Below are positions 22,162 through 30,294 of a DNA stretch of 47,700 nucleotides, in pieces (position 1 is the first letter of the stretch; every line of letters starts with the position of its first letter). The notes beneath the pieces are model-generated. The model had not been told where the DNA came from. It made no database searches and saw nothing but the letters and a program-made list of their open reading frames with translations. Origin of the DNA: Nitrospira sp. (GTDB lineage Bacteria; Nitrospirota; Nitrospiria; Nitrospirales; Nitrospiraceae); assembly GCA_016788465.1 (NCBI GenBank), contig JAEURV010000022.1, positions 1 through 47,700 of the forward strand, given 5' to 3'. Made by a program: the position numbers and the translations under genes.

Positions 22162-22248
22162 GCCGAAGTGGCGGAACTGGCAGACGCACTAGATTCAGGG
22201 TCTAGCGCCCTCACGGGTGTCCGGGTTCAAATCCCGGCTTCGGCACCA
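22162..22248 (+). tRNA. tRNA-Leu (anticodon CAG)
   Basis: An 87 nt class II tRNA. Acceptor stem GCCGAAG pairs with CTTCGGC, discriminator A (22245), encoded CCA (22246-22248). The anticodon stem CTAGA/TCTAG encloses loop TTCAGGG with anticodon CAG (22196-22198). A long variable arm (GCCCTCACGGGTGT) and T-loop GGTTCAAATCC follow. Its 3' 55 nt are also the left attachment site of the integrated element, which preserves a complete tRNA. Confidence 0.97.
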
Positions 22249-22250
22249 AC
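22194..22250 (+). repeat. Left attachment site (attL), 57 bp direct repeat
   Basis: Identical over 57 bp to 30238-30294. It starts in the anticodon loop of the tRNA-Leu gene and ends two bases after the encoded CCA. Bases outside the repeat differ at once (a/c before, t/c after). Confidence 0.95.
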
Positions 22251-22343: not shown

Positions 22344-22364
22344 CTGTCAAGTAACTGTCAAGTG
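22344..22364 (+). repeat. Subterminal TGTCAAGT pair, left (possible integrase arm site)
   Basis: Two copies of TGTCAAGT, 11 bp apart (22345-22352 and 22356-22363). The whole 21 bp block recurs exactly at 30100-30120 in the same orientation, just inside the other end of the element. Position and pairing resemble arm-type sites of tyrosine integrases; function is inferred. Confidence 0.65.
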
Positions 22365-22397: not shown

Positions 22398-23567
22398 TTA
22401 ATTAGCCGGGGGTGTAGCGCGATCTGCTCTCATTATGTCGAAAATTTCAGTCGCTAGATAGATTCTATAACGCTTCTTGCCCGTTGCTTCCTTCAATATT
22501 CCCTCTTTGACTAGCTTGTTAATAGCCATTTGGACTCCTTCGGTAGAAGCTTCTAGTCTGTTGGCCATAGTTGGGGCGCTGAGAGCTGGCGAGTAAAAAA
22601 GTTCGTCTACAAGCTTTAAAACAAGGTTTGAAGAATGATTGCTCTGAATCCGCTTTCTATAGCTTTGCCATAGCCCCAGAATATTGTTAGCTCTGTCTAT
22701 AGCGTCCTGAGACTGGACAATAATACCCTTCAGAAAATAGTTGATCCAATCATTCCAAGTGCCCCTTTGGCTGACTGATAACAGATGGTCCATGTACTCG
22801 CGCTTATACCGCTCGAAGTACGCACTTAAATAGAGCAGAGGTAGCGGCAGCAGCTTGCGTTCGACAAGTAACAAGATAATTAGAAGTCTTCCTATCCTAC
22901 CGTTCCCATCAAAGAATGGATGGATCGTTTCAAATTGGTAATGGATTAGAGCCAGCTTAATAAGAATAGGAATTTGATCTGGCTCCGAGATGAAGCGCTC
23001 TAAAGCATCAAGGGCAGCATTCATATCATCAACAGGGGCAGGGACAAATCTAGCGTCTCTTATAGTCTGACCTGCTAATCCTATAAAGTTTTGTCGGTTT
23101 CGAAATTCCCCCGGTCGGCGCTCCCCCCCTCTTGCTCCTGACAGTAACTTGTCGTGGAGTTCTCGAATGAGTCTCAATGAGACGGGCAAAGAGGTTAACC
23201 TTTGAATTCCATGTTCCATGGCAATAACATAGTTGGCTACCTCTTTAACGTCTGGTGTTACTACCTTCCCAGGGCTGTCCGCAGCGAATAGAGCTAACTC
23301 CTCTTCAGTTACTATGGTTCCTTCAATCCGGCTTGATATAATGGCCTCTCTCTTCAGGAAAGGCTTTATTAAAAGGTGTGGGTTCGGGAGCATGCGACCC
23401 ACACCAGAAAGCTGCCCCAATGCTCCCCTCGCTTCACTCAGGCTATCGGCAATCTCCCAATTAAGGTTCAAGAGGGGAGGAAGAGGGTTGGGAATAAAGG
23501 CTAGACAGCCTTCCGGGATTGGGACAAGCCTCCCAGGCGCCGATGGTAGGAAGTCTTCCTGTTTCAT
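22398..23567 (-). CDS. Fic-domain protein (putative AMP transferase)
   Basis: Counted from ATG 23567 the protein has 389 residues. An N-terminal Fic_N-type domain contains the inhibitory-helix motif SSRIEG (S78, E82, G83), of the [S/T]xxxE[G/N] type that blocks the active site in class II Fic enzymes. The Fic core carries HPFFDGNGRIGR (216-227) with catalytic H216 intact. A C-terminal winged helix (about 310-375) could bind DNA. Family members transfer AMP from ATP to protein Ser/Thr/Tyr residues. ATG 23567 has GAGGG upstream; a GTG at 23612 would add 15 residues but sits next to a TATAAT (minus strand, 23620-23625). It is the outermost gene next to attL and likely cargo: regulator, toxin-like factor or anti-phage function are all possible. 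Confidence 0.92.
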   Translation of the reverse strand: MKQEDFLPSAPGRLVPIPEGCLAFIPNPLPPLLNLNWEIADSLSEARGALGQLSGVGRMLPNPHLLIKPFLKREAIISSRIEGTIVTEEELALFAADSPGKVVTPDVKEVANYVIAMEHGIQRLTSLPVSLRLIRELHDKLLSGARGGERRPGEFRNRQNFIGLAGQTIRDARFVPAPVDDMNAALDALERFISEPDQIPILIKLALIHYQFETIHPFFDGNGRIGRLLIILLLVERKLLPLPLLYLSAYFERYKREYMDHLLSVSQRGTWNDWINYFLKGIIVQSQDAIDRANNILGLWQSYRKRIQSNHSSNLVLKLVDELFYSPALSAPTMANRLEASTEGVQMAINKLVKEGILKEATGKKRYRIYLATEIFDIMRADRATPPAN

Positions 23568-23649
23568 TGCTAACTTTCCCTCTAGAAGGTAGCTTTGGTC
23601 GCTTAAGACCACATAGTGTATTATAAGGGGACAGTTTAAGCAAAGTATT

Positions 23650-23774: not shown

Positions 23775-24824
23775 TTAGGATTGTAGAATAAGGTTAGGTT
23801 CTGGAGTTAATGGGAAGTCCAAAACCCTTACAGCTGAGGTCAGATGCTTCGGGGAGAGGTGTGCATATCGAAGTGTCATCGTCGGCGAAGTATGTCCGAG
23901 AAGGTTGCTCACCGTGGCGAGGGGGACACCTCGCATAATGAGCCAGGACGCAAAGGTATGCCTGAGGTCGTGAAAGTGGAAATCGGTTAGTCCTGAAGCC
24001 TCACAGGCCCGTTCAAAGCCATGTCTCACATCATCCCACCGATGCCCGGCAGGATCGTGAAAGACCCAGGGGACATCGGGCCGGGTTCGTAAACCACTAA
24101 AGAGGCCCCAGAGCGTTTCGTTGAAGGGGAGGGCACGTGCCTTCCCATTCTTGGTCTGCTTCAGCCGGATAAACCCATGTGTCATGTCGACACAGTCCCA
24201 GGTAAGCCCTAACAGTTCTCCTTTTCTCATGCCAGTATGAAGAGCGGTCAGCACGATAGGCCTCAGCCAGTCCTCACAGGCTTGAAGCAATCGCTCTGCC
24301 TCAGCTTCCCCTGAGAGGTACCGCAACCGGCCATCTGGTTCTTGGTACTTGCGTATGGCGGTCAGCTCTTCCCGAAGGGCCTTCCGTAACAACTTCCACT
24401 CGACGGCCTTACTTAAGGCATGCTTCAGCGTCGCCATTTCCCGGTTGATCGTGGCAGGGCCAACCTTCTCACCCAAGCGCAGCGCCCTGTAGTGATCTAA
24501 GATTTCCACAGTGAGGGTGTGAATCGGTGGATTGCCCCATACTCGGGCGAAGTGGGCAAAATGAATCTTCTTGGTCGCCAGTCCGCGTTGATGCCCGACA
24601 AAGGCGAGATATCGCTCCTTCAGTTCCTCCAGTGCAACCGGCTTGATTGTCGGAGCCGGAACGATGCCCTCCATCGCTTCTTTCCGCCGATCAATGAGCC
24701 GCTGTTCTGCATCCTTCTTGTTGCTCGTTTTGCAGGATTCAAATTGTTGCCTGCCGATGGCATTACGATATGTCATCCACCAGATGTTTCCCCGCTTGTA
24801 GAGGCCTCGCGTTGACCGTGCCAT
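23775..24824 (-). CDS. int: Tyrosine-family site-specific integrase
   Basis: The 349-residue recombinase has an N-terminal AP2-like DNA-binding part (GLYKRGNIWWMTYRNAIGRQ), a SAM-like core-binding domain (about 62-160) and the catalytic domain. Active-site residues are all visible: R200 in HTGMRKGELLGL, H285 and R288 in FHDLRHTFASWL, H311 in LLGHTSPTMTL, and nucleophile Y320 in LRYAHLS. It should integrate and excise the surrounding element at the tRNA-Leu att core. ATG 24824 lies 4 nt after the stop of a ribbon-helix-helix gene, so the two are co-transcribed from the promoter at 24993-25022. The next gene, fic, follows after 162 bp. Confidence 0.96.
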   Translation of the reverse strand: MARSTRGLYKRGNIWWMTYRNAIGRQQFESCKTSNKKDAEQRLIDRRKEAMEGIVPAPTIKPVALEELKERYLAFVGHQRGLATKKIHFAHFARVWGNPPIHTLTVEILDHYRALRLGEKVGPATINREMATLKHALSKAVEWKLLRKALREELTAIRKYQEPDGRLRYLSGEAEAERLLQACEDWLRPIVLTALHTGMRKGELLGLTWDCVDMTHGFIRLKQTKNGKARALPFNETLWGLFSGLRTRPDVPWVFHDPAGHRWDDVRHGFERACEASGLTDFHFHDLRHTFASWLIMRGVPLATVSNLLGHTSPTMTLRYAHLSPKHLTSAVRVLDFPLTPEPNLILQS

Positions 24825-25044: not shown

Positions 25045-25067
25045 TGGTGTGCTGTACCGTTCCCGGC

Positions 25068-25235
25068 GTGACACGAGAGAAAGCAACCGCGCAGAAGAAG
25101 ACCTTCGGTTTACGGCTGAATCAGGAACTCATGAAGGAGTTGTCCCACCTAGCCGTGGACAAGGAACGATGGGTCAATGATTTAGTTGACGAAGCAATAC
25201 GCGACTTGCTCAAGAAGTATCAGAAGCAAAAGTAG
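25068..25235 (+). CDS. Second ribbon-helix-helix-like small protein
   Basis: From GTG 25068 the product is 55 residues, beginning MTREKATAQKKTFGLRLNQE. KKTFGLRLN fits the RHH strand, ELMKELSHLAVDKE helix 1, and WVNDLVDEAIRDLLKKYQ helix 2, giving a typical Arc/CopG-type dimeric DNA-binding fold. An upstream in-frame GTG (25047) would add seven residues; neither start has a good ribosome site, so the N-terminus is uncertain. It is transcribed away from the other RHH gene, with the palindrome and promoter between them. Such a divergent pair of regulators is reminiscent of a lysogeny-type switch, but the fold alone does not prove that. Confidence 0.7.
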   Translation: MTREKATAQKKTFGLRLNQELMKELSHLAVDKERWVNDLVDEAIRDLLKKYQKQK

Positions 25236-25338: not shown

Positions 25339-26178
25339 ATGAACACCTGTCCATCCTGTCTATCTGAGCTTGCTGAAAAAAGTCGTTACTGCATTAAGTG
25401 TGGCAGACAATTTCTCTGGGGAGAAACCAACAGGGAATTCGATACGTGGAGATCGCCTGCCCTCACCACTGCCGATGAAGCGGCTCGGAAATTAGCTGTC
25501 TCTTTTCTCTATGAGCCAGACGTAGAACTATTTCTGAAAGGAAAGGACGAGGGTTTCATTGAAAATTTCAAATATTTCTTGAAGGATGTTCTCTGCACAC
25601 GGGCAACATGCTTTGATCCGACGCTTAAAATGGTCGATCAAACTAGGGATCCCACAGAATGGATTGAAGATGTGAAACGCATTGCAGTGGCATACTTGGA
25701 AACCCCCTGGTTGCACAACCCTTGGCTGACTAATTACCTAATACGGGAAGTGGCCTCCTGTCAGCTGCAGGCTTTGGCATACCAACGGAACAGAGGAATT
25801 TATCCTGAATATCATCTTAGGCGCTCATTGAAAGAACCGTATAACTCAATCGCCCCTCCTTTGTTAGGGGCGGCTTTCTTTCTCTGCCTTCTGACGCTCC
25901 TGTACTACCTGCTTTCTTATGATCAGATCGGATGGGCGGCATTGGTATTGCTTTACTTTGTCTATCATTACTCGCTCAAAGTATGGCAAATGATCTCTCG
26001 GGGAAAAAGTCGTCGAAAGCTCTTCGAGTATCTGGAAATGTACTCAATTATCACTCATGATATTTTCTCTAGTTCTTATGATGTAGACACGATCCTACGT
26101 CGTCTCAAGTCCTGTGAGGCAAAGGGGCTATTTCCCTATAGCGTGCTATTTGCACTATTGGAGCTCAAAAAGCGCTGA
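25339..26178 (+). CDS. Zinc-ribbon, two-TM membrane protein of unknown function
   Basis: The 279-residue protein begins with a four-Cys zinc ribbon (C4, C7, C18, C21; CPSC...CIKC). A soluble region (25-165) rich in acidic and aromatic residues follows, with many Trp in TPTEW/LETPWLHNPWLTNY-type segments. A hydrophobic hairpin spans about 170-214 (PPLLGAAFFLCLLTLLYYLL, then WAALVLLYFVYHYSLKVW), and the C-terminal domain of ~60 residues is cytoplasmic. No enzymatic motif was recognised. It is the only plus-strand gene of size in the element, is not linked to replication genes and ends at a plausible terminator, so it is probably independently expressed cargo. Membrane-anchored effectors of defence systems share this layout, but that is only analogy. 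Start ATG 25339 has no strong Shine-Dalgarno. Confidence 0.82.
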   Translation: MNTCPSCLSELAEKSRYCIKCGRQFLWGETNREFDTWRSPALTTADEAARKLAVSFLYEPDVELFLKGKDEGFIENFKYFLKDVLCTRATCFDPTLKMVDQTRDPTEWIEDVKRIAVAYLETPWLHNPWLTNYLIREVASCQLQALAYQRNRGIYPEYHLRRSLKEPYNSIAPPLLGAAFFLCLLTLLYYLLSYDQIGWAALVLLYFVYHYSLKVWQMISRGKSRRKLFEYLEMYSIITHDIFSSSYDVDTILRRLKSCEAKGLFPYSVLFALLELKKR

Positions 26179-26220: not shown

Positions 26221-26260
26221 GGCACTAGCCATGAATATGCAGGGCTACGCCGCCTTTTTT
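26221..26260 (+). terminator. Possible intrinsic terminator
   Basis: GGCacTAGCC (26221-26230) can pair with GGCTAcGCC (26243-26251), a stem with a small internal bulge; the hairpin is followed by GCCTTTTTT. It lies 43 nt after the stop of the zinc-ribbon membrane protein. Confidence 0.55.
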
Positions 26261-26445
26261 GTATTTCGAGGGTGCTTTTAGGAGCCCATAGCCCCTTCAG
26301 CAACTGTATGCTGGCGCGGTAGATCGGAGTGTCCTGAATATCTGAGTGGTGTCCTCTAAACTTAGGCATCTGGGGGGATTTGGGCGGTTGGGCTATATAT
26401 TTCTTACGTCCTTTTTGTATTTCCATGATGCGTTGAGGAGCCCAT
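26253..26445. repeat. Diverged ~37 bp direct repeat in a 426 bp non-coding stretch
   Basis: Segments 26253-26289 and 26410-26445 share CCTTTTT, GTATTTC and GAGCCCAT blocks with a few differences between. They lie in the gap 26179-26604, which holds no convincing gene; a 121-codon minus-strand frame across it merely translates the repeat twice and overlaps the upstream gene. Role unknown. Confidence 0.5.
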
Positions 26446-26604
26446 CTCTCCTCAAATCTGCCCTTTGCCGATCTTGTTGCAGGTGAAGCTTTGAGAAGCA
26501 TCCTGAGAACTCAGGTGGTCCAGCGTCGAGGTTTCAAAAGAGCATTTCCACTTCCTATGCCCTGTGCGGCTGTGTTCACTTTTGGTGCGTTTGGTGCGCT
26601 CTAA

Positions 26605-27018: not shown

Positions 27019-27045
27019 ATATCCGTCCCTCTATGAAACTTATGG

Positions 27046-27230
27046 GGAAACCATGAGGAAACTTCTGGTTTCCTGTCTCGGAAAATGTTTTGAGGTCGGA
27101 AACCATGCATCACCGCTCTGGCAGCTATGTTTTTTTAGAAAGTTTCCTGAAGTCTGTGTGTGAATTGCCGGAACCAAATTAGGAAACCTTTGATTGCTGC
27201 TGGAAACCAGATAGGAAACTCTGAGGAAAC
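27046..27230. repeat. Iteron-like GGAAAC cluster (candidate replication origin)
   Basis: Within 185 bp, GGAAAC occurs in direct orientation at 27046, 27057, 27098, 27182, 27202, 27214 and 27225, and inverted (GTTTCC) at 27068 and 27142. Neighbouring copies are 11-12 bp apart, about one helical turn, and the 13-mer GGAAACCATGAGG occurs twice (27046, 27225). Chance would give about 0.1 copies. It sits just 3' of the RepA/DnaB-like gene, so it is a strong candidate for the element's iteron origin. Confidence 0.7.
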
Positions 27231-27245
27231 CATGAGGCAAGCCGG

Positions 27246-28619
27246 TCATTGGACACCTGCTTTGATCCTCTTGAGGAGTTTCGACGCATACCCTTTTGTG
27301 ATTCCAAGCTCTTCCGCGATGTCACTAGGACTGATGACGCCCTCGTTGAATAATCGCTGTGCCTGGTCCAGCTTGCATTCTTCGATAGGTTGGTAGACCC
27401 ATTGCAGGCGATCATTGACGGTCTGAAGCCGAACATCCAGAGGCGCTACATCCTTGCCGGTCACACTCCGGGACTTGGTAAACGCCAACTCAAAATGGCA
27501 TCCTTCACGGTCATCCGCTCCAGGTGGCTTCGACAATTGGATTACCGTATCAAGAGAGTCTTCCCGCCCACTCGTGCCCCGTTGTTTCCCGTCCTTTCCG
27601 GCATGATGAACTAAAACGGTCGCCAGCCCTCGATGGCGAAGCCGGATCAGCCACGCGCCAATGGGCTCCCAGTCTTCTTTACGGCATTCGTCGATGCCAC
27701 TGAAGAGACATGAGATATTGTCGAGGATCAGCACGCGAATGTCCGGGCGAGCATCGAGGATCCTGACCACTTCTTGCCGCATGGGCTCAGAGGTAAGAAT
27801 CAAGTCCTTCCCCCCGCACCGCTGATAAACCAGCTGACTCGTTAGAAATTCCAAAGACGCTCTTGGAGGTTTACCCATGAGAGCTGTCGTCCTGGTTCGA
27901 AGTTCATCGAGCTGCATCTCCCCATCCACATAGAGGACCCCTACCGGATTCTCGACCTTCCAGTTCCACAGGTCTTGCCCGCTTGTCAGTGAAACGGTTA
28001 GGGCTAATTGGAAAAAGGTTTTCCCGACGCCACGAGGGCCGTAGACCATCACGTTGCCCCCTTCAGGTAGCCAGGGCAAATGCTGAGGGCGCTTAGGAAG
28101 ATCAAGGCTGAGGAGACTACTGTAACTGACTAGCGCCTCTGAAAGAGGCAGCCTCGTGTCAGGCTTCTGGTAGTCGTGGAGGGCTCGCAGTCGAGCGAAT
28201 AATTCTTCAGGATCGGCTCCTGAGTATGCCCGCTCCTGGATGGAATAGATTTCCCGAATGATCCTCCGGTTCTCGGCAGCTTTGCGGACTGAGAGGCAGT
28301 AGCTTTTGATGTTCACCGATGACACGACACCGGCAACGAGCTCAGCAAGGTAGGCAGCTCCACCAATGTTGGTAAGCTCCCCTTTCTGTTTGAGGCGTTC
28401 AGTCAACGTGACATTGTCAATTGAATCTCCGCATTCGGCCAGATCGAGCATTGCCCGATAAATGCATTGATGCCCCTGTGACGTGAAGTCTCCATCTGCC
28501 ACAAGTTCTTGAGCTACAGCCAAAGCAGCGGGGTCTAGCAATACGGCACCTAGAATAGCTTGCTCGGCCTCAGGTGCTTGGGGAAGTGATCGGGGAAGGT
28601 CAAGGGCAGCTTCTATCAT
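27246..28619 (-). CDS. DnaB-N / RepA-type replication ATPase
   Basis: The 457-residue protein joins an N-terminal DnaB-like domain (about 13-115: PEAEQAILGAVLLDP, then GGAAYLAELV) to a RecA-fold ATPase. Walker A is GPRGVGKT (194-201) and Walker B is VLILDN with D300; LVHHAGKDGKQRGTSGRED then follows as in AAA_25/RepA hexameric helicases of RSF1010 type. A C-terminal HTH (SPSDIAEELGITKGYASKLL) could contact origin DNA. It is therefore probably the helicase/initiator of the element. It overlaps the upstream AlpA-like gene by 4 nt, so both are translated from one message. No primase domain is visible, so priming would rely on the host or another mechanism. Confidence 0.88.
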   Translation of the reverse strand: MIEAALDLPRSLPQAPEAEQAILGAVLLDPAALAVAQELVADGDFTSQGHQCIYRAMLDLAECGDSIDNVTLTERLKQKGELTNIGGAAYLAELVAGVVSSVNIKSYCLSVRKAAENRRIIREIYSIQERAYSGADPEELFARLRALHDYQKPDTRLPLSEALVSYSSLLSLDLPKRPQHLPWLPEGGNVMVYGPRGVGKTFFQLALTVSLTSGQDLWNWKVENPVGVLYVDGEMQLDELRTRTTALMGKPPRASLEFLTSQLVYQRCGGKDLILTSEPMRQEVVRILDARPDIRVLILDNISCLFSGIDECRKEDWEPIGAWLIRLRHRGLATVLVHHAGKDGKQRGTSGREDSLDTVIQLSKPPGADDREGCHFELAFTKSRSVTGKDVAPLDVRLQTVNDRLQWVYQPIEECKLDQAQRLFNEGVISPSDIAEELGITKGYASKLLKRIKAGVQ

Positions 28620-28831
28620 AGCCTGCCCCCTTCTGCTTCTGCGGGAGGCATCGGACGCCGTAAGGCTGCCAGCACTTCGTCAATCCGAAAGCGAACGCCT
28701 CGGCCTTCTGTCCCTACTGAGTAGCAAGGTATTTGGCCAGACCTCGCCATCCGGTACGCCGTACCTTTCGTTAGAATGCCGCGCTCCTCAAGCACCGCAG
28801 CTGTAACCAACTCACATTGATCCTGTTCCAT
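28616..28831 (-). CDS. AlpA/excisionase-like helix-turn-helix protein
   Basis: A 71-residue protein with the MerR-like HTH_17 layout: VTAAVLEERGILTKGTAYRM (HTH) followed by the wing SGQIPCYSVGTEGRGVRFRI and DEVLAALRR. Proteins of this type act as excisionases or as activators of integrase genes in P4-like satellites (AlpA). ATG 28831 is chosen because GGAGG sits five nt upstream; a GTG at 28843 would overlap that ribosome site. The stop overlaps the replication ATPase start, which couples the two genes. Whether it binds near the att ends or the integrase promoter is unknown. Confidence 0.82.
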   Translation of the reverse strand: MEQDQCELVTAAVLEERGILTKGTAYRMARSGQIPCYSVGTEGRGVRFRIDEVLAALRRPMPPAEAEGGRL

Positions 28832-28938
28832 GTAGACCTCCACAGATTAAGGGGGATACTCCTATAGCTTCCATGAGAGGCCGTCCGACCTCAGGAAGCC
28901 ACCTCTACCTATGGAGAAAACGAAAAGGAGTGGGGTAA

Positions 28939-29898
28939 TTAGTCGTCGGAGGAAGGATCGGACCCGAAATCTTCCATGCGTAAAACTCGTCTAGTACGGG
29001 CATGTTCAATAGTGGATAAGTCCAGGCCTGTGCGTTCTCTCCACGCCGATTTTTCCTTACGAAGTAAAGGTTTGTGTTTCCCGCACAACTCCCCGGAAGT
29101 CGTATACGTTTCTGCGCAATCGGTGCAATTTGAAATATCCTCCACCGCCTCAGGCAAATTCTCTGGGTCTAACAGATGTCTGAGTTTGGGGTTCTTCAGA
29201 ATGGGACGTTCAAGGCCATCAAGGAATTCATTCTGAATATCCAAGGTTGCAATCTTCCTGCGGACCGAAAGATAGGCATCACGAATAGTGGATGGTCTTT
29301 TCCCGAGTTCTTCTGCGACATCCTTGAATGTCGCCTGCTTTTCCCCGGTTCCCTTGGTCATGAGATCAAAAACTTTCAGTTGGAACTTAAGGCTCGGGGG
29401 CTTCTTGCGATCATGGCCACCGAAATACGAATGCCTCAGTTCCTGATGGATAAGTGGAATCAGTTGGTCGAGAGTGAGGGAATGGTCTACTGAAATCTCA
29501 ATAATGGTCTTAAACCCTCCGCCAGGGCGAGAACCGAGAATACGGACGGGGGCGGCTGATACCGAAAAATCGGATTTTCCCTTTCTTGCCGCCTGGTACC
29601 ATCGCTCTAGTCCTTTGATAGTAATTAGCCGCTCTGTATCGGGCCAAAATGCCAGATCCGGGAGACGATGTACTCGCCATTTGCCGAGATAGCGAAAGTG
29701 TAGAAAGTCAAGTTTTCTGAGTGACTTAGAGCTCCAGAGTGGTTCATGTCGATTGACCCATAATTTCAGCTTTTCATAGTCAGTTAGGTATTTAGCGACA
29801 TCTTTGCGAAACTCCTCGTTGCGAACTAAGAGCGTCCACCTGTCGTAATCCGCTCTTAGAAAGTCCTGGAGTGCTTCCTGTGCGTTTTTCCTTCCCAT
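28939..29898 (-). CDS. Element protein with HTH and Cys-rich tail, unknown function
   Basis: A 319-residue protein with AAGGAAGG just before ATG 29898. The N-terminal half (1-160) is Trp-rich and basic (YDRWTLLVRNEEFRKD, KLKLWVNRHEPLWSSKSLRK) and could fold as an alpha/beta DNA-binding or nuclease-like domain, though I see no catalytic motif. Residues 191-216 (KDVAEELGKRPSTIRDAYLS) are a clear sigma-region-4-like HTH. Three cysteines follow (C258, C261, C272; CTDC...LCGKH), perhaps with a His as fourth ligand, so a zinc site is possible. It lies at the right end of the element, 108 bp upstream of the AlpA-like gene on the same strand. It may be the master regulator or an origin factor; that is inference. 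Confidence 0.78.
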   Translation of the reverse strand: MGRKNAQEALQDFLRADYDRWTLLVRNEEFRKDVAKYLTDYEKLKLWVNRHEPLWSSKSLRKLDFLHFRYLGKWRVHRLPDLAFWPDTERLITIKGLERWYQAARKGKSDFSVSAAPVRILGSRPGGGFKTIIEISVDHSLTLDQLIPLIHQELRHSYFGGHDRKKPPSLKFQLKVFDLMTKGTGEKQATFKDVAEELGKRPSTIRDAYLSVRRKIATLDIQNEFLDGLERPILKNPKLRHLLDPENLPEAVEDISNCTDCAETYTTSGELCGKHKPLLRKEKSAWRERTGLDLSTIEHARTRRVLRMEDFGSDPSSDD

Positions 29899-30237
29899 GC
29901 CCTTCCTTTACGGGCGCACTGACGTGTTTTTGGTTTTGTATATATTGACTATGGCCCTATCATCAGGAAGCGAGCTTTTTTACCGGAGGAAAATTTTTGT
30001 GACGGTCTGGTGCGGAGCAGGCGATGGCGTCGACGCACTTAAAATTTTCCCCCATACCCTCCCATGCCCCCCTTTGGCGATTTCAGGCTGACGGGTTTAC
30101 TGTCAAGTAACTGTCAAGTGGCTGCCCGATTCTACCGTTTCCTGGGGTAGCGTGCTGTTTCGTGGATATAGATAAAGCCTAGGGAAAATGCAACAATACG
30201 TCACGGTGGGTCACAGGAGGAGAATGGTTGCGCTCCC
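29899..30237. other. Non-coding right end of the element
   Basis: 339 bp between the last element gene and the right attachment site. It holds the promoter region of the minus-strand genes (AT-rich at 29930-30000) and the subterminal TGTCAAGT pair at 30100-30120. No further gene or RNA was recognised. Confidence 0.5.
30100..30120 (+). repeat. Subterminal TGTCAAGT pair, right (possible integrase arm site)
   Basis: Exact 21 bp match to 22344-22364, same orientation, with TGTCAAGT at 30101-30108 and 30112-30119. It lies 117 bp inside the right att copy. Confidence 0.65.
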
Positions 30238-30294
30238 TTCAGGGTCTAGCGCCCTCACGGGTGTCCGGGTTCAAATCCCGGCTTCGGCACCAAC
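30238..30294 (+). repeat. Right attachment site (attR), 57 bp partial tRNA-Leu duplication
   Basis: Identical to 22194-22250. Only the 3' part of the tRNA is present, without acceptor 5' strand, D arm or anticodon 5' stem, so this is a tRNA remnant and not a functional gene. Confidence 0.95.

Follow-up and report, generated by a model that had tools for sequence, protein, structure and literature searches.

A candidate iteron-type replication origin 3' of an AAA_25-HTH helicase gene in a tRNA-integrated element of Nitrospira

The integrated element and its helicase

The window analysed is a stretch of 47,700 nucleotides from Nitrospira sp., and it holds an element of 8044 bp (8.04 kb) which is integrated in a tRNA-Leu gene and flanked by perfect 57-bp direct repeats. 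The features of the element are summarized in Table 1. The integrase gene, together with the direct repeat of a tRNA 3' end at both ends, places it among the tRNA-targeted integrative elements. The tRNA-Arg gene which ARAGORN called at 30200-30292 appears to be a false call made on the attR copy of the tRNA-Leu 3' end. The element proteins were scanned with Pfam and PHROGs. No packaging gene was recognisable among the proteins searched, and RepB and RepC were not named in these scans, in which the 319-aa and 137-aa proteins stayed without assignment. The Fic-domain protein has a possible C-terminal HTH and showed a strong match to the phage family phrog_5978, of unknown function. An identical 21-mer, CTGTCAAGTAACTGTCAAGTG, composed of two CTGTCAAGT units, was observed near both ends of the element in the same orientation (22344-22364 and 30100-30120); the two copies are probably arm-type sites of the integrase or excisionase. 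The gap that separates the zinc-ribbon gene from the 279-aa cargo gene contains a 46-bp direct repeat with 78% identity (26251-26296 and 26407-26452).

Table 1. Coordinates of the element features in the window
Feature	Position	Strand	Remarks
attL	22194..22250	+	3' part of tRNA-Leu (22162-22248), 57-bp direct repeat
Fic-domain protein	22398..23612	-	cargo between integrase and attL; Pfam
Tyrosine integrase of the element	23775..24824	-	Pfam, PHROGs
Arc-like (ribbon-helix-helix) small protein	25047..25235	+	PHROGs
279-aa cargo protein	25339..26178	+	possible N-terminal zinc ribbon; Pfam, below cut-off
Zinc-ribbon protein, 137 aa	26605..27018	-	next gene after the array
Iteron array, proposed replication origin core	27046..27230	.	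nine exact GGAAAC/GTTTCC (7+, 2-); shuffles and conservation
Exact hexamer copies	27046, 27057, 27098, 27182, 27202, 27214, 27225	+
Exact hexamer copies	27068, 27142	-
Conserved non-iteron block in the 40-bp gap	27155..27170	+	window sequence TGTGTGTGAATTGCCG; approximate consensus TTGTGCGATTCTGC; seven-array alignment
Rep, proposed initiator helicase	27246..28619	-	DnaB-type N-terminal domain, RecA-fold AAA_25 motor, C-terminal HTH
Codons of the Rep C-terminal HTH (residues 412-457), proposed iteron-binding domain	27249..27386	-	recognition-helix region GITKGYASKLLKRIK
HTH_17 excisionase/AlpA-like protein	28616..28843	-	directly upstream of rep; Pfam, PHROGs
319-aa protein	28939..29898	-	no family match (Pfam, PHROGs)
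attR	30238..30294	+	second identical 57-bp copy

The domains of Rep were assigned by Pfam as DnaB_N (12-112) and AAA_25 (182-344), with weak HTH matches at about 420-455. The AlphaFold2 model, built on a 27-row alignment, had a mean pLDDT of 81.5; the motor and a three-helix HTH at 412-456 (pLDDT 85-97 by block) were confident, and the DnaB_N part, which matches DnaB by sequence, was poorly predicted. The motor most closely matched the structure of RSF1010 RepA, a hexameric replicative helicase (Z 22.0, 2.8 A, 223 residues), to which the sequence match was 6e-10. For the HTH, a sequence match was obtained to the B. subtilis repressor DeoR, in its DNA-binding domain (PDB 7bhy); the conserved half-site pattern of DeoR is TTCAA (PMC11229326).

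The hexamer array and its conservation

The array occupies the gap between the helicase stop codon (27246) and the zinc-ribbon gene. An earlier note on this DNA had described nine hexamers, seven direct and two inverted, immediately 3' of a replication ATPase gene, and the same copies were recovered on recounting 27046-27230. The successive spacings are 11, 11, 30, 44, 40, 20, 12 and 11, in accordance with its statement that several copies lie 11-12 bp apart, and the repeated 13-mer which it mentioned falls within the repeat at 27043 and 27222. At a period of 10.5 bp the seven direct copies are in phase and share roughly the same side of the helix (vector length 0.93), and two further hexamers differ by one mismatch (GGAAAA at 27080 and GGAACC at 27170). 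The expected number of GGAAAC copies per 185 bp at the rate of the window itself is about 0.14, close to the value of about 0.1 given earlier. When the whole window was shuffled 60 times (first-order), no 185-bp span held more than 3 GGAAAC copies or more than 7 copies of any hexamer. That the array is a chance or generic repeat with no function is therefore extremely improbable, as the shuffles never reach nine copies and the array is conserved across genera and families.

Nine further Nitrospirota loci were found by whole-genome and contig searches, namely G004 (L003/L024), G045 (L004/L025), G329 (L036), G294 (L037), G148 (L038), G264 (L059), G084 (L062) and the Nitrospira contigs L022 and L023. 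With the window included, the array was found directly 3' of the helicase gene in 10 of 10 loci, which bears out the check on homologous elements proposed in the earlier note; a relative which lacks the repeats and still replicates, the case named there as contrary evidence, was not encountered among these close helicase relatives. The relatives carry 9-16 copies of GGAAAC, except L023, in which nine GGCAAC copies stand at the same spacing and the recognition helix reads ASR in place of ASK, a concerted change. The spacing frame 11/12-11-30/31-44-40-20-12-11 is common to seven loci (the window, L022-L025, L036 and L059). Outside this frame the region has diverged in the alignment of the seven arrays, and the invariant columns are mostly in the hexamers, with a few in the block within the 40-bp gap. 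The 20-12-11 block is inverted in L037, L038 and L062, where the array extends into the next ORF. Single-strand folding of the array gaps revealed no hairpin common to all arrays; a gap hairpin was significant in L022 (z -3.9), with another in the neighbouring gap of L024 (z -2.4), and none was significant in the window, L023, L025 or L036.

Four of the relatives are likewise integrated in tRNA genes, L023 in tRNA-Gly, L024 in tRNA-Thr, L036 in tRNA-His and L038 in tRNA-Met, and a second tRNA-end copy was located 6.7-9.9 kb away. The N-terminal domains of the helicases are swapped (DnaB_N, DUF3854, Toprim, CHC2 zinc finger-Toprim), and the motor, the HTH and the array are kept together. A search of 396 genomes with a degenerate pattern was unspecific on its own, its reversed-pattern control also giving matches, and L033-L035 were rejected as chance matches of this search.

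The repeats might also belong to a coding sequence, as several relatives have a 69-78 aa ORF that runs through the array and overlaps the stop codon of rep; such ORFs are present in the window, L022, L023 and L024. Their peptides have no evident similarity by eye, the spacings of 11, 20 and 40 shift the hexamers between frames, and it is the hexamer and the helical spacing that are conserved; a coding role is hardly credible.

Another reading is that Rep binds the array as a site of regulation or copy-number control (incompatibility/handcuffing) and that replication starts elsewhere. Iterons often serve also as control sites, and the array sits between two genes of one operon. The AT content of the array is 56% against 46% for the window, with 76% in the best 25-bp step, and the failure to find a pronounced AT-rich melting region in the array likewise favours a regulatory site. 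However, the array lies 3' of rep and not at the rep promoter, the fusion of a DNA-binding domain to a helicase is to be expected mainly where replication starts, and the architecture recurs with different downstream neighbours. A purely regulatory function is hence considered improbable, and regulation and origin function are mutually compatible.

Association of the array with the recognition helix

The window helicase as a single query matched no viral contig, and alignment-based IMG/VR searches were needed, which yielded about 80 further loci. The array test took the best non-overlapping hexamer in 430 bp around and after the stop codon and compared it with 200 first-order shuffles. Among the proteins with an HTH, which include those of the Nitrospirota, 42 of 64 gave a significant array (p<=0.01), versus 2 of 10 among the proteins with no HTH (Fisher p 0.012). 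In a stricter test, from which L044 (coding tandem repeat) and L130 (ambiguous protein) were removed after inspection, none of the 8 homologues devoid of the HTH had an array (p 0.0005). The hexamer runs of L041 and L044 were judged by inspection to be coding low-complexity repeats and were not taken as arrays in this test. For the other 22 homologues with an HTH, the 400 bp 3' of the gene held no significant array; weaker arrays were present in this region in L103, L119 and L071, the array of L054 lies inside the gene upstream, and that of L094 lies 1 kb further downstream with the word CGCACA, which its relative L113, having the same recognition helix, also uses.

The hexamers vary by viral group (CGCAAC, GGACCA, GGGACA, TGATTCA, GTAAAC, GGGTAC and others). 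Arrays directly 3' of a more distant helicase of this kind were found in three annotated phage genomes, with 13 GGTTCA in Alteromonas phage PB15, 6 GGGACA in Salicola phage CGphi29 and 8 GGGACA/GTCCCA in ct3Oc712. No array was found 3' of the gene in Streptomyces phage mu1/6, Skermania phage SPI1 or phage ct76p945, and no clear array in Caldicellulosiruptor plasmid pATHE01, a distant ATPase match. In L054 (3511-3629), a CGCACG array was observed inside the gene upstream of the AAA_25-HTH helicase, reminiscent of the lambda O iterons. GGAAAC arrays were also observed in two viral contigs 3' of a VapE-type primase-helicase, which has a motor of a different family (L026:1350-1549 and L027:11761-11960); the former contig has large-terminase- and portal-like ORFs, and convergence on the same word is possible.

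The relation between the hexamer and the helix was analysed for 42 loci after removal of near-duplicates. L103 and L119 (p about 0.06) were included by hand on the grounds that their words fitted; L123, L130 and L136 were left out by hand owing to doubtful HTH alignment. The similarity of the motifs correlated with the identity of a nine-residue segment of the recognition helix (Mantel r 0.544, p 0.0002), and the correlation was 0.450 (p 0.0005) when corrected for motor identity, which is not the full phylogeny. For the viral loci alone it was 0.306 (p 0.0005). The first, N-terminal part of the HTH explained far less (0.159 after the motor-identity correction). GGAAAC is also found with the distant viral Reps L103 (GITKGQVSKIK) and L082 (TTRGTVSKYL), which share the helix pattern [ST].G..SK; GTAAAC is found with KGYVSR (L096, L119) and GGCAAC with KGYASR (L023).

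The hexamer is most likely read by the C-terminal HTH of the helicase itself, which is favoured as binder because the arrays accompany the HTH and the hexamer changes with the recognition helix. This domain and the neighbouring zinc-ribbon protein had both been named as candidate binders in the earlier note; co-variation argues for the former, and the latter loses ground as its gene is not beside the array in L037 and L038. Binding by another protein of the element (zinc-ribbon, HTH_17) or of the host, for instance at a partition or packaging site, would find some basis in the zinc-ribbon gene that follows the array in five Nitrospirota loci; a CxxC-CxxC N-terminus like that of the zinc-ribbon protein is also present in L022, L023, L024 and L036. 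The gene arrangement in L037 and L038 and the tracking of the hexamer with the Rep recognition helix render such a binder very unlikely.

The proposed origin and related systems

The array very probably represents the replication origin of the 8-kb element, at which the C-terminal HTH of Rep would read GGAAAC and make Rep a self-recruiting initiator helicase. Short direct repeats near helical spacing adjoin a putative initiator gene, as in iteron origins, and the conserved array, its link with HTH-bearing helicases and the way in which the hexamer varies with the helix lend sequence-based support to the iteron-type origin candidate first put forward in the earlier note. Several Rep subunits would dock through the HTH on the helically phased hexamers downstream of their own gene, the docked protein may distort or melt the DNA, and the helicase ring would be loaded at the array by Rep itself. 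The excised element would then replicate from the array, and the swapped N-terminal front ends may act in priming. Against this reading stand the 22 HTH-bearing homologues with no significant array in the region tested, the want of a pronounced AT-rich segment and the lack of a hairpin common to all arrays.

Among known systems, the alpha protein of phage P4 is a satellite primase-helicase with its own origin-binding domain and ori, and the oriV of RSF1010 is an iteron-based origin. P4 alpha resembles Rep in being a satellite helicase with an origin reader and differs in helicase class. Rep shares with the IncQ plasmid RSF1010 the RepA-type motor (closest solved fold, Z 22; hexameric state by likeness). 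The RSF1010 oriV is melted by a separate protein, RepC (PMC8965321), whereas Rep combines helicase and HTH in one protein, whose N-terminus may include a domain of the primase type. P4 alpha has primase and helicase activity, and the RepA of the Vibrio PLE satellite, likewise a satellite-encoded initiator with a repeat-type origin, is a RepA_N protein with no predicted helicase or primase activity (PMC7145576).

The closest parallel in architecture is with SaPI Rep and SCCmec Cch2, whose C-terminal domain is reported to bind short repeats directly downstream of their own genes (PMC7581432). As in these SaPI (PICI) and SCCmec systems, the helicase belongs to an integrated element, the array lies directly 3' of the gene for a helicase with a C-terminal DNA-binding domain (here an HTH by prediction), self-loading is proposed and a primase part is optional. 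The SaPI/Cch motors are of the DUF927 and D5/Primase_Cterm families (PMC7581432), whereas the Rep motor is of the RecA-fold RepA/DnaB type, with Pfam matches to DnaB and AAA_25 and to neither of those families. Like the SaPI origins, the candidate would be of the iteron kind and served by a helicase that is itself the initiator; what sets it apart is the class of the motor. The chances are about even that it stands for a large new initiator class in phages and satellite-sized elements, in which a RecA-fold helicase with a DeoR-like C-terminal reader, a swappable front end (primase or DnaB_N) and an array hexamer predictable from the recognition helix would load itself with no separate initiator or loader. 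No description of an AAA_25-HTH helicase combined with a 3' array was found in the papers searched, which is not proof of absence, and for Nitrospira itself a non-exhaustive literature search gave no account of a system of this kind.

Rings of the DnaB/RepA type normally depend on an initiator, and often on a loader as well, and the present system raises the mechanistic question of whether such a ring can load itself through a fused DNA-binding tail. With approximately forty naturally occurring combinations of a recognition helix and its hexamer, the loci provide a data set on how an HTH reads DNA. Searching 3' of AAA_25-HTH helicase genes is a rule by which candidate origins can be located in isolated phages, Alteromonas phage PB15 among them, and in dozens of uncharacterised viral contigs. 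For the Nitrospirota, a repeat with no annotation has become a specific, testable candidate origin for a family of mobile elements.
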